A DNA stretch of 64,000 bases from Methanoculleus thermophilus (lineage in GTDB: Archaea > Halobacteriota > Methanomicrobia > Methanomicrobiales > Methanoculleaceae). Below, piece after piece: positions 56,161 through 64,000 of the stretch. The stretch is taken from the NCBI RefSeq assembly GCF_001571405.1, contig NZ_BCNX01000004.1, positions 124,001 to 188,000 of the forward strand. Reading direction: 5' to 3'. The translations under genes were made by a program, and so were the position numbers. Position 1 is the first letter of the stretch. Each line of letters opens with the position of its first letter. A model generated the notes under the pieces. That model was not told the DNA's origin and made no database searches. It worked only from the letters and a program-made list of their open reading frames with translations.

Positions 56161-57318
56161 CTACTTCGTCGCCATCGTCCGGAGGATCGCCATGATGCCG
56201 GGCTTTGTATTTCTCACGAACGGCGAGCCGAACCCGCCCATCTCCATATCCCCGGACCCGAAGATCTCCTCGTTTAATCGGGTGGTGATCTCGTCGAATA
56301 TCCGCTTATACGCGACACAGTGGGGGTCGACGCCCCGGACCTCACCGTCCGTGGGGGCGATCGCGTTGTAGGGGCACCCGCCCCGGCAATATTTGATATG
56401 AGCACACCCGGCGCATTCCTGATCGACGTAGTCCTTGAAGGCGTGCATCAACTTCCAGGCCTTCGACCGGGCGAGGTCTTCGGCCGTAGGGCGGTCGCGG
56501 ACGTTCCCCATCACGTACTTCGGCATCCCGACGAAGCGGTAGCAGGGGTATATGCTCCCGTCAGGGCCGATTGCGAGGGTGGTTCCCATGCAGTCCACGA
56601 ACGTGCAGACGGTTCCGTGCCGGGTGAATATGCCCCTGCAGAGGTCGTTGATGTTCATAACCTCGATCCGGCCCAGGTTATCGAGATACCTGTCGAGGAG
56701 GTAGACCAGGAGTTCCCCGTACTCCTCCGGCTCGAGCGCCCACTCCTTAGGATCTTTGCTTCGGAGCGACGGCAGTGCAGGGTGGAGTTTGAGGGGGAAC
56801 CCTTGCTTGAGGAAGAAGTCAAAGATCGTCTCCTTCTCCTTGACCGACCGGTTGGTGAACGTGCAGATAAACCGGACCTCAAGCCCGTTTTCCCGTGCTA
56901 TCTCGTAGCCCCGCATGGTCTTTGCAAAGTAGCCCTTTCCTCTCTGCGCATCGGTTATCTCCTCGGGGCCGTCGATGCTCGAACCGATGGGAATCTGATA
57001 TTCTGCGAGGATCTCTGCCAATTCCGGGGTGAGCAGCCAGAGGTTGCTCTGCAGGGCGAACGTCGGTGCAAGATGGGCGAGCCCCTCGGAGAGGATCGGG
57101 AGGGCCTGCCGGTAGAATTCAGCGCCGGCAAGGAGCGGTTCGCCGCCATGAAAGGTGATCGTGACCTGGTTGGACTGATAGTCTTTGAGCCATTCGGCAA
57201 TCTCCCGGACCGTCTCGATGCTCATCCTCGGCGACCCTTCATCAGAACTCCAGCAGTAGTGGCATTTTGAGGGGCAGCCGAGTGTGGGGATGATCATGAC
57301 ATGGAAAGGGCTCTTCAT
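56161..57318 (-). CDS. SPASM-domain radical SAM enzyme, peptide-modifying type
   Basis: 385 residues. The radical SAM cluster CPSKCHYCW (Cys15, Cys19, Cys22) is followed by TFHGGEPLLAG. The C-terminal SPASM region has CxxC-type ligands spread over CTFVDCMG, YPCYRF and CAGCAHIKYCRGGCPYNA for auxiliary [4Fe-4S] clusters, as in anaerobic sulfatase-maturating and peptide-modifying enzymes. It looks like the methanogen family typified by Mhun_1560 (recalled, not searched). No sulfatase and no Cys-rich precursor peptide could be found within 1 kb on either side, so the substrate is open. Confidence 0.85.
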   Translation of the reverse strand: MKSPFHVMIIPTLGCPSKCHYCWSSDEGSPRMSIETVREIAEWLKDYQSNQVTITFHGGEPLLAGAEFYRQALPILSEGLAHLAPTFALQSNLWLLTPELAEILAEYQIPIGSSIDGPEEITDAQRGKGYFAKTMRGYEIARENGLEVRFICTFTNRSVKEKETIFDFFLKQGFPLKLHPALPSLRSKDPKEWALEPEEYGELLVYLLDRYLDNLGRIEVMNINDLCRGIFTRHGTVCTFVDCMGTTLAIGPDGSIYPCYRFVGMPKYVMGNVRDRPTAEDLARSKAWKLMHAFKDYVDQECAGCAHIKYCRGGCPYNAIAPTDGEVRGVDPHCVAYKRIFDEITTRLNEEIFGSGDMEMGGFGSPFVRNTKPGIMAILRTMATK

Positions 57319-57534: not shown

Positions 57535-58536
57535 CTAGTGGGCAGTCGTGCTCCCGATATCGACGCCCACTATCCCGACGACAGCGCCGGTCGCGTCCTT
57601 GATGGGAGCATACCCGGATATGATGATGGCGGTGGTGTTGTCCCACTCTTCGGTAGAGAGTTCGCTCTCTGCGGAGGGTCCGACAAACCCGGCGAGGAGC
57701 TTGGAGTCATCTCCCGTAGTCTGGTAGATGCTGCCTATCGCGGGTGTGTCGCCGGGTTTGTAGTCGGCATCAACGACATACTCGATGGTATCATTGACTT
57801 TGCGCATTGTATAGACGTAGAGGACCCCGGGGTTTTCGTCCCGGAAGGCGGCGAGTCTGTCGCGGATGGCGATGAACTCCGGTGTGGTCTCATCGCCCGG
57901 CTTGAGTGCGGCGAGGGCGTCGCCATCGATCTGGGCCGCAATCTCCGTTGCGAGGCCTTTCAACATATCTTCGGTGATCACGCTGCCGATGTCAACGCCG
58001 ACAAGCCCGACGATGGAGCCGCTCGCGTCCTTGATGGGGGCATACCCGGAGATGATATAGGCAACGACACCGCCCCACTCTTCGATGTAATACTCGGGCT
58101 CAGCCGAGGGTTCTTCGAACCCGGCGAGGAACGCGGTGTCATCATCCGTGGGATAGTAGACCTCGCCTACTGCGGGCGCATAGCCTCTGCCGTAGTCTGC
58201 ATCCACAACGTACTCGGTGGCGTTCCCGACCTTGCGCATCGTATAGACGTAGAGGACCCCGGGGTTTGCATCCCGGAAGGCGGCGAGCCGGTCGCGGATG
58301 GCGATGAACTCCGGTGTGGTCTCGTCGCCCGGCTTGAGTGCGGCGAAGGCGTCACCGTCGATCTGGGTTGCAATCTCCGCTGCGAGGGCCTTCAACTCTT
58401 CTTGTGTATTCTTTTCCGGAACCGGTTCAGCTCCCCCTTGCGAGAATACGACCCAGACTCCTGCTACTACAATGATCAGGGCAATGACGCCGATTAGCAT
58501 GATAATCGGACTGCGTTGCTGCGTCAAAGAAATCAA
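57535..58536 (-). CDS. membrane-anchored protein with two tandem Cache-like sensor domains
   Basis: 333 residues. One N-terminal membrane helix (about 11-31) places the rest outside the cell. Residues about 47-188 and 194-331 are two copies of the same PDC/Cache-type domain: both contain IDGDA.AALKPGDETTPEFIAIRDRL, GVLYVYTMRKV, EYVVDADY and ISGYAPIKDA.G..VG.VGVDIGS. The copies are also nearly identical in DNA, indicating a recent duplication. There is no cytoplasmic kinase, cyclase or chemotaxis domain, so it may bind a ligand and signal through a partner. The radical SAM gene lies downstream on the same strand. Confidence 0.85.
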   Translation of the reverse strand: MISLTQQRSPIIMLIGVIALIIVVAGVWVVFSQGGAEPVPEKNTQEELKALAAEIATQIDGDAFAALKPGDETTPEFIAIRDRLAAFRDANPGVLYVYTMRKVGNATEYVVDADYGRGYAPAVGEVYYPTDDDTAFLAGFEEPSAEPEYYIEEWGGVVAYIISGYAPIKDASGSIVGLVGVDIGSVITEDMLKGLATEIAAQIDGDALAALKPGDETTPEFIAIRDRLAAFRDENPGVLYVYTMRKVNDTIEYVVDADYKPGDTPAIGSIYQTTGDDSKLLAGFVGPSAESELSTEEWDNTTAIIISGYAPIKDATGAVVGIVGVDIGSTTAH

Positions 58537-61127: not shown

Positions 61128-61303
61128 ATTCTGGTGTACGGGGGGAAGGGGAATAAGCAATGCGGCACTTGTTCTGCCGCTCAATCTGTACGCAGAACCT
61201 GCTCGATAGCGGCATGCAGATCCTCGGTCGGATTCTGCTCCAGCGGTCCCCTCTCCCCGGTCGGGCGCCGGGATTGATATGCCCCCCGGTTGTCCAAAGG
61301 TTG

Positions 61304-62875
61304 ATGTCGAAAGCAACTGAGATGGGGTGCATGGAGCGCACGAAGGGCCCGGCCCTGATCTCGTGGAACGTCACCCTCCGTTGTCCGCTGATGTGCGCCC
61401 ACTGCTACGCGGACGCTGGCGTTGACGAAGCGGAAGGTGTCCTCTCGACCGCCGAAGCGCTCTCGGTCATCGATCAACTCGCGAACACCGGAAGGCCCAT
61501 CGTCGTCCTCTCCGGGGGAGAACCCCTGATGCGGGAGGATATCTTCGAGATCGCCCGCTACGGGACTGAACGGGGACTCGTGATGGCGATGGGCACGAGC
61601 GGGTACCTCCTCGATAAGGCGACGGCGAAGCGGCTCAGAGACGCAGGAATCCGGTCGGTGGCGGTCAGCATCGACTCCGCCGACCCGGATACCCACGACG
61701 CGTTTCGCGGCGTTGCCGGCGTATGGGAGCGGGCGGTCGCGGCGATCAAGCACTGCCGAGACGCGGGGCTCGGCGTCCGGATCAACATGACGGTCATGCG
61801 CCCCGTCCTCGCCGACGTCGAGGAGGTCATCGCTCTCGGCGAATCCCTGGGTGTCCGCGACTACCAGGTCTTCCTCCCGGTGGAGACCGGGAGGGGACGC
61901 GGACCCGGGCAGGGCAGCCCCCGCGAGTACGAGGACCTGATCCGGGCTCTCCTCCTCCGGTACCGGGAGAGCAATCTCCGGATCCGGCCGACGTGCTCAC
62001 CCCAGTTCCGCCGGATTGCCGACGAAGTCGGGATTGAGAATCGCGGCTGGAGTCGGGGCTGCATGGCCGCCATCAGTTACTGCCGGATCTACGCGACCGG
62101 GGAGGTGACGCCCTGCCCCTATCTGCCGGTGAGCGCGGGCAACCTCCGCACCACGCCGTTTTCTGAGATCTGGAATAATTCGGAACTCTTTCTCGCCCTC
62201 CGCGACCCGGACCGGCTTGCCGGGAAGTGCGGCCGGTGCGGCTACAAGACGGTCTGCGGCGGGTGCCGGGCGCGGGCCTGCCGCGGGGTTGATTTCGTTC
62301 CGGCCCGGTGGTGCGACGGACTCATGCGGCCCGATGACCCCTGCGGGGAGATCACCCGCGAAGACCCGTGGTGCCCCTACGAGCCCGGGGGCCCCGACCG
62401 GACCGATCTTGCGATCCTCGACGCCCTCCAGGGCGACCTCCCCCTGGTCTCGCGCCCGTGGGCCGTCATCGCGGAGAGAGTCGGGCTTGCGGAGGATGAG
62501 GTCGTCGCAAGGATGCGGCGGCTTCAGTCCTTGGGCGTCCTCCGCAGTGTCTCGCCGGTCTATGAATCGCGGAAGTTCGGGCTTGCCGCCGCGACCCTGG
62601 TCGCCCTCCGCGTCCCGGAGGACCGGGTGAGCGAGGTGGCGGAGGTCGTCAGCACCTACCCGGAGGTCTCGCACAACTTCCGGCGTGACCACGCCTACTC
62701 TCTCTGGTTCACCCTCTCCGCCCCGACAGAGGAGCGGCTCTCCGCGGTGCTCGCGGAGATCCTCTCCCGAACCGGCATCCCAAAGGAGGACACGCTCAAC
62801 CTCCCCACCGTCCGGGCCTATAAGATCGACGTGCGGTTCCCGCTCTCGGAGGAGGGGTCGTATGGATCCGACTGA
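61304..62875 (+). CDS. ahbD-ahbA: fusion of AhbD-like heme synthase (radical SAM) and AhbA-like siroheme decarboxylase
   Basis: 523 residues from ATG 61304 (ATG 61322 or 61331 also possible). Residues 1-360: radical SAM domain with CPLMCAHCY (Cys27, Cys31, Cys34), VLSGGEPLMREDI, DTHDAFRGVAGVWERA, FLPVETGRGRG and SPASM-type cysteines CGRCGYKTVCGGCRARAC, as in heme synthase AhbD. Residues about 365-520: Lrp/AsnC-like winged helix plus PEVSHNFRRDHAYSLWFTL, the siroheme decarboxylase AhbA pattern. The two steps bracket the pathway (siroheme decarboxylation first, coproheme to heme last). Overlaps ahbB by 14 bp. AhbD and AhbA are separate genes in the organisms where they were characterised. Confidence 0.78.
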   Translation: MSKATEMGCMERTKGPALISWNVTLRCPLMCAHCYADAGVDEAEGVLSTAEALSVIDQLANTGRPIVVLSGGEPLMREDIFEIARYGTERGLVMAMGTSGYLLDKATAKRLRDAGIRSVAVSIDSADPDTHDAFRGVAGVWERAVAAIKHCRDAGLGVRINMTVMRPVLADVEEVIALGESLGVRDYQVFLPVETGRGRGPGQGSPREYEDLIRALLLRYRESNLRIRPTCSPQFRRIADEVGIENRGWSRGCMAAISYCRIYATGEVTPCPYLPVSAGNLRTTPFSEIWNNSELFLALRDPDRLAGKCGRCGYKTVCGGCRARACRGVDFVPARWCDGLMRPDDPCGEITREDPWCPYEPGGPDRTDLAILDALQGDLPLVSRPWAVIAERVGLAEDEVVARMRRLQSLGVLRSVSPVYESRKFGLAAATLVALRVPEDRVSEVAEVVSTYPEVSHNFRRDHAYSLWFTLSAPTEERLSAVLAEILSRTGIPKEDTLNLPTVRAYKIDVRFPLSEEGSYGSD

Positions 62876-63350: not shown

Positions 63351-64000
63351 ACAGGATCACACAGTGCATGCACGGACGGGGAACGGTCAGCAGCGTTATG
63401 CACCACCGAGACAGGCCTCTTTCAGAGGTGCCGGGAAAGTACCTCGCGTTCATGCAGGACTACCGGCCTGTCGTCTTCTGGAACCTCACCGACCGGTGCA
63501 ACCTCGCCTGCGCCCACTGCTACAGCCGGTCCCGGCCGGACTTGATGACAGACGACGAACTCTCGACCGGCGAAGCCCTCGCGCTCATCGACGACCTCGC
63601 CGCGGCGGGCGTCCCGCTCATCCTCTTCTCCGGCGGCGAACCCCTCCTCCGCGAGGACCTGCCGGAGTTCGCGCGTGCGGCGGCGGAACGCGGGATCAGG
63701 ACCGCGCTCAGCACGAACGGCACGCTGATCACCTCCGATGTCGCCCGGATGATCAAGGAAACCGGGATCGGCTACGTCGGGATATCGCTCGACGGCGCGG
63801 GGCCGGAGACTCACGACACGTTTCGGGGGTGTGAGGGTGCGTTTGCAAGGGCTGTTGAAGGGTTTGCCCGGTGCCGGGAGGCTGGCATCCGGACCGGCCT
63901 CCGGGTCACCCTGACGAGGGAGAACATGGGGGAACTCGAGGCCCTACTCGACCTTGCGGGGACGCTCGGAGCCTCGCGGTTCTGCCTCTACTGGCTTGTG
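63347..64000 (+). CDS. ahbC: 12,18-didecarboxysiroheme deacetylase AhbC, 5' part (continues beyond window)
   Basis: 218 codons are present, without a stop. MNRITQCMHGRGTVSSVMHHRD precedes PVVFWNLTDRCNLACAHCYSRS (Cys51, Cys55, Cys58 for the radical SAM cluster), ILFSGGEPLLREDLPEFA and GISLDGAGPETHDTFRG. The last residues RFCLYWLV match the AhbC/NirJ strand before the PSGRG loop. It would convert didecarboxysiroheme to Fe-coproporphyrin III. Coupled to ahbB by a 4-bp overlap. Confidence 0.88.
   Translation, partial: MNRITQCMHGRGTVSSVMHHRDRPLSEVPGKYLAFMQDYRPVVFWNLTDRCNLACAHCYSRSRPDLMTDDELSTGEALALIDDLAAAGVPLILFSGGEPLLREDLPEFARAAAERGIRTALSTNGTLITSDVARMIKETGIGYVGISLDGAGPETHDTFRGCEGAFARAVEGFARCREAGIRTGLRVTLTRENMGELEALLDLAGTLGASRFCLYWLV

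Follow-up and report, generated by a model that had tools for sequence, protein, structure and literature searches.

A near-core radical SAM/SPASM protein of Methanomicrobia, encoded directly downstream of mcrA in several families, as a tentative candidate for the didehydroaspartate maturase of McrA

Radical SAM enzymes of the SPASM type carry a CX3CX2C motif together with a seven-cysteine SPASM pattern. Enzymes of the anaerobic sulfatase maturase (anSME) type catalyse the two-electron oxidation of a Cys or Ser side chain, and in these maturases the Asp that follows a YPC motif plays a catalytic role. In the SCIFF, PapB and DynA systems, small precursors are clustered with the maturase genes.

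A second set of related systems acts on methyl-coenzyme M reductase (MCR), the source of nearly all biological methane (PMC12176620). According to the available parts of the papers cited here, McrA of M. acetivorans carries methylHis271, methylArg285, thioGly465, didehydroAsp470 and methylCys472 (PMC5943407, PMC7058361). Makers have been reported for three of these five modifications, methylArg, thioGly and methylCys (PMC7581889), and an ordinary methyltransferase is expected for N-methylHis, while the machinery of didehydroAsp was stated to be unknown in 2020 and again in 2021 (PMC7581889, PMC8070964). In the accessible parts of the 2022–2026 literature that mentions didehydroAsp, mostly outside subscription journals, no enzyme is named. 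Two radical SAM enzymes, Mmp10 (the MCR arginine methylase) and MgmA (the MCR glutamine methylase), have McrA as their substrate and are often encoded beside mcr (PMC5943407, PMC11796369); Mmp10 was indeed first picked by mcr-neighbourhood reasoning (PMC5943407).

The DNA analysed here is a stretch of 64,000 nucleotides of Methanoculleus thermophilus (contig NZ_BCNX01000004.1, positions 124,001 to 188,000; hereafter the window). It contains an ORF with an ATG start and a 385-residue product (Table 1), which matches NCBIfam TIGR04083, a hypothetical equivalog with a cut-off of 300 bits, at 709 bits over profile positions 1–375 of 376. The literature that was searched for TIGR04083 or Mhun_1560 by name, mostly outside subscription journals, yielded nothing. 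The protein also matches Pfam Radical_SAM (68.8 bits, cut-off 29.5), Pfam SPASM (32.6 bits, cut-off 21.5) and NCBIfam TIGR04085 SPASM (62.4 bits, cut-off 27), and more weakly the DynA, PapB and SCIFF maturase models. Each Cys of the CX3CX2C motif (C15, C19 and C22) is found in 119/120 archaeal homologues, and eight Cys of the SPASM region (C238, C243, C259, C302, C305, C311, C315 and C334), which would be ligands of auxiliary [4Fe-4S] clusters, are invariant in 120/120. Both cysteine patterns of a SPASM radical SAM enzyme are thus complete.

Table 1. Coordinates of the TIGR04083 gene, its motifs and its neighbour in the window.
Feature	Position	Strand	Basis
TIGR04083 radical SAM/SPASM gene	56161..57318	(-)	ORF, Pfam and NCBIfam profile matches
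SPASM region C238–C334, eight Cys	56317..56607	(-)	Profile matches and homologue alignment
Y257-P-C-Y-R261 (YPCYR)	56536..56550	(-)	120/120 archaeal homologues
C15-x3-C19-x2-C22 codons (CX3CX2C, SAM-binding [4Fe-4S] cluster motif)	57253..57276	(-)	Homologue alignment
Cache-like neighbour	57535..58536	(-)	sCache_3_3, 23.7 bits, below Pfam cut-off 28.8

Another radical SAM/SPASM gene of the window (61286–62875, + strand) is of the AhbD/NirJ2 kind, at about 320 bits and below both 500-bit cut-offs; its product is fused to a siroheme-decarboxylase-like (AhbA/NirDL) domain. It is followed, up to position 64000, by an apparent second decarboxylase subunit and a further radical SAM ORF.

The TIGR04083 gene is present in 197/232 genomes of the class Methanomicrobia, nearly always as a single copy, and in 128/135 of the good genomes of this class. 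It is therefore a near-core gene and not a gene of a RiPP cassette. Within the class it is nevertheless missing from G056 and G076, two good genomes from the same genus as the window, and several genera of Methanosarcinaceae have McrA and no TIGR04083. Phylum-wide it occurs in 167/390 genomes, the carriers belonging to families f1–f6, f8, f14, f21, f27 and f31, and also to f7 (3/7) and f33 (2/3). In a tree of 57 TIGR04083 members, the branching broadly tracks the organisms and a deep split (100/100) sets the three bacterial members apart; descent has thus probably been vertical for the most part, with some losses.

At the scope of the phylum and by family, TIGR04083 occurs only where McrA occurs. 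Both genes were found in 158 of the 390 genomes, the radical SAM gene alone in 9, McrA alone in 71 and neither in 152; all 9 genomes of the second group lie in f3, f6 and f27, families whose other members have McrA. Four f31 genomes (G534, G539, G540 and G545) have the radical SAM gene, as a fragment only in G534 (299 bits), and gave no match to a 204-residue McrA fragment used as query.

The two genes are also linked on the chromosome. Linkage was assessed in the 95 genomes, of the 158 with both genes, for which both positions were among the matches listed, and the radical SAM gene lay within 6 kb of mcrA in 20 of these 95 among the matches listed. All 20 linked genes are downstream of mcrA and on the same strand, 17 of them at less than 500 bp (gaps of 144–490 bp), and the linkage is seen in families f2, f6, f7, f8, f21 and f31; at one further locus, L080, the radical SAM gene is on the strand opposite to mcrA. 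Loci L263–L280, partly fetched on suspected linkage, were left out of these rates. McrA had already appeared near the radical SAM gene in 9/95 distant loci, in a clustering that preceded any suspicion of MCR, and McrB, McrG, MtrE and component A2 are other MCR-system neighbours at some loci. Linkage to mcr, as found for MCR-modifying enzymes, is thus present in several lineages; in the window's own genome and in Methanosarcina, none was seen.

Genus g71 illustrates this arrangement. In its 10/10 carriers the radical SAM gene starts 171–490 bp after mcrA, and in 7 of these 10 it is followed by a hydantoinase-like gene (a putative label), which comes directly after mcrA in 4/4 of the non-carriers inspected. 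McrA position 216 (G157 numbering) is W in 11/11 aligned g71 sequences from genomes without TIGR04083 and F in 6/6 with it, a difference that may be just a subclade marker. In genome G274, a frameshifted 3′ copy of mcrA (L146:8714–9201) stands directly after the TIGR04083 gene; this decaying copy was considered as a mini-substrate and set aside, given the frameshift and the lack of a counterpart at nine other g71 loci that were inspected.

The near-core status of the gene and its position 3′ of mcrA in several families point to the large, abundant MCR as the substrate. We consider it fairly probable that the enzyme has some role in MCR maturation. The more specific proposal, that archaeal TIGR04083 is the maturase making the didehydroAsp of McrA near the thioglycine, is put forward tentatively, at a little short of even confidence.

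This proposal can be compared with the published status of the residue. In the available parts of the sources, didehydroAsp is reported in M. acetivorans, ANME-2c and ANME-2d (PMC7058361, PMC12413448) and as absent from Ca. Ethanoperedens and ANME-1 (PMC9081873, Table 1); it was also found in M. marburgensis, with M. wolfeii, M. kandleri and M. shengliensis negative (PMC9081873, PMC12413448), these last organisms being left out of our comparison. The names given here to the numbered genomes rest on PDB matches of their McrA. The TIGR04083 gene is present in M. acetivorans (at 4090849–4091973 on contig C1 of G465, whose McrA is identical to 8gf5) and in 23/23 genomes of that genus, in 2/3 genomes of the ANME-2c family (McrA of G524 is close to 9qm5), the third, G526, giving no McrA match either, and in 23/25 genomes of the ANME-2d family (McrA of G477 is close to 9qr1). 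It was not found in Ca. Ethanoperedens (G468, whose McrA matches 7b1s), in any of the 12 McrA-containing genomes of the ANME-1-like family f10 or in the control M. jannaschii, which has McrA and serves as a proxy for Methanococcales. Gene presence therefore fits didehydroAsp status, with few independent changes, since the concordant positives are related and descent is largely vertical. The Asp at the modification site is conserved in all 66 aligned McrA sequences, 37 of which come from genomes without TIGR04083; there is thus no co-variation at the level of the residue. This counts against the proposal, as do the missing mcrA linkage in the window's own genome and in Methanosarcina and the bacterial members described below, although conservation of the Asp in genomes lacking the gene is compatible with tolerance of an unmodified Asp.

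We infer McrA as the substrate, this Asp as the residue and dehydrogenation as the reaction. In such a mechanism, the radical SAM cluster would cleave SAM to give a 5′-deoxyadenosyl radical. Within the McrA active-site loop G-(Y/F)-D-L-Q-D-Q-C, this radical would abstract a hydrogen from the second Asp, and the Cα–Cβ bond of this one Asp would be desaturated inside the 570-residue McrA. By analogy with the anaerobic sulfatase maturases, this would be a two-electron side-chain oxidation following the same logic, for which the enzyme would need a base and an auxiliary cluster able to accept electrons, besides the 5′-deoxyadenosyl radical. The Tyr that replaces the Asp after YPC would fit a different deprotonation chemistry. 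If the proposal is true, the function of didehydroAsp becomes testable genetically, the status of uncultured methanogens and ANME becomes predictable from their genomes, and a substrate is assigned to a family so far named only as peptide-modifying.

A first alternative, which we regard as rather unlikely, is that the enzyme modifies some other protein, or a ribosomal peptide, whose gene lies elsewhere, and that the linkage to mcr is incidental. The SPASM family, the database name and the resemblance to the DynA, PapB and SCIFF maturase models all speak for it. So do the three bacterial members (L089, L090 and L092, from Peptococcaceae and Marinifilum MAGs), which score 353–387 bits, above the family cut-off, in organisms where MCR is not expected; MCR is therefore not the substrate of the whole TIGR04083 family. 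These three have YPCQR, with a Gln, where the archaeal proteins have YPCYR, and no precursor was found in their neighbourhoods. On the archaeal side, however, a gene that usually occurs once and in most genomes of the class is unlike a cassette gene, and the uniform arrangement of the linked genes, 20/20 of which follow mcrA on its own strand, argues against an incidental linkage. Clustering of 115 homologous loci, moreover, gave no small-ORF family in more than 6/95 distant loci and no neighbour gene conserved across the order. Intergenic ORFs with up to six Cys do exist in the window between 53001 and 61000, and the locus clustering recovered no family matching them. The conserved small precursor gene that would mark a RiPP maturase was thus not found nearby. 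The first-pass annotation had described a peptide-modifying type of radical SAM enzyme without a visible precursor, and the profile matches and the lack of a convincing precursor nearby bear this out. Its further idea of a hidden short precursor peptide finds no support in a gene that is near-core and directly 3′ of mcrA in several families, and is probably wrong. On two other points the earlier proposal was right: the enzyme is of the peptide- or protein-modifying kind, and its substrate is probably encoded elsewhere.

It is also unlikely, in our view, that the enzyme serves MCR maturation on a target other than didehydroAsp, be it a different site in McrA, a residue of McrB or McrG, or an accessory protein like component A2 (AtwA). 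The mcr linkage would suit this too, and AtwA (TIGR03269, 847 bits in L056) is encoded upstream in several f6 loci, with MtrE downstream in others. On the other hand, the AtwA-like gene beside the radical SAM gene in ANME-2c (L265) reaches only 331 bits against a cut-off of 517, and the AtwA-like label is insecure there and in L137. Furthermore, the available parts of the sources give no other modification lacking an enzyme that M. acetivorans, ANME-2c and ANME-2d share and that is missing from Ca. Ethanoperedens and ANME-1.

Returning to the fold, the model of the window protein (mean pLDDT 85) bears on two further readings, both of which fare worse than the MCR maturation favoured here. A small-molecule substrate, as for some SPASM/Twitch enzymes, is very unlikely: viperin and DesII are among the weaker fold matches, and a protein substrate is a deduction, but the 21 best fold matches are all peptide or protein maturases. 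Sulfatase maturation is more improbable still, despite the closest solved structures being those of the sulfatase maturase anSMEcpe (E about 1e-23 in the structure search, and E 5e-31 by sequence). The window protein scores 175.8 bits with the maturase model TIGR03942, whose cut-off is 349.45, and the catalytic Asp of the solved enzyme (YPCD) aligns with Y260, a Tyr in 120/120 archaeal homologues. Moreover, a sulfatase match is absent from 6/12 genomes carrying TIGR04083, and the only one of the window's own genome (contig C4, 242570–243865) adjoins a different radical SAM gene, so that sulfatase maturation was rejected as the role. This second, anSME-like gene (C4, 240406–241449) probably encodes the maturase of the adjacent sulfatase. 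A role of the neighbouring Cache protein as substrate, as had also been suggested, can practically be dismissed, since its gene, adjacent and on the same strand in the window, is beside TIGR04083 in only 5/116 homologous loci, all from close relatives, and the adjacency is thus local. The Cache-like protein itself appears by eye to contain an internal duplication, with two similar halves of about 165 residues each.

Set against the known systems, the TIGR04083 protein shares the SPASM architecture of the SCIFF, PapB and DynA maturases, with weaker matches to their profiles, whereas their clustered small precursors have no counterpart at the TIGR04083 loci. With anSMEcpe (PDB entries 4k36–4k39) it has in common the radical SAM and SPASM domains and, if McrA is the substrate, the modification of a protein side chain (TM 0.80, 24–26% identity); it differs in falling below the anSME cut-off, in the Tyr after YPC and in a gene presence that needs no sulfatase. 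Finally, it resembles Mmp10 and MgmA in being a radical SAM enzyme encoded near mcr in several families and, as proposed here, in acting on McrA, but these two are cobalamin-dependent methylases, whereas SPASM maturases are the best models for the window protein, which itself contains a SPASM domain.
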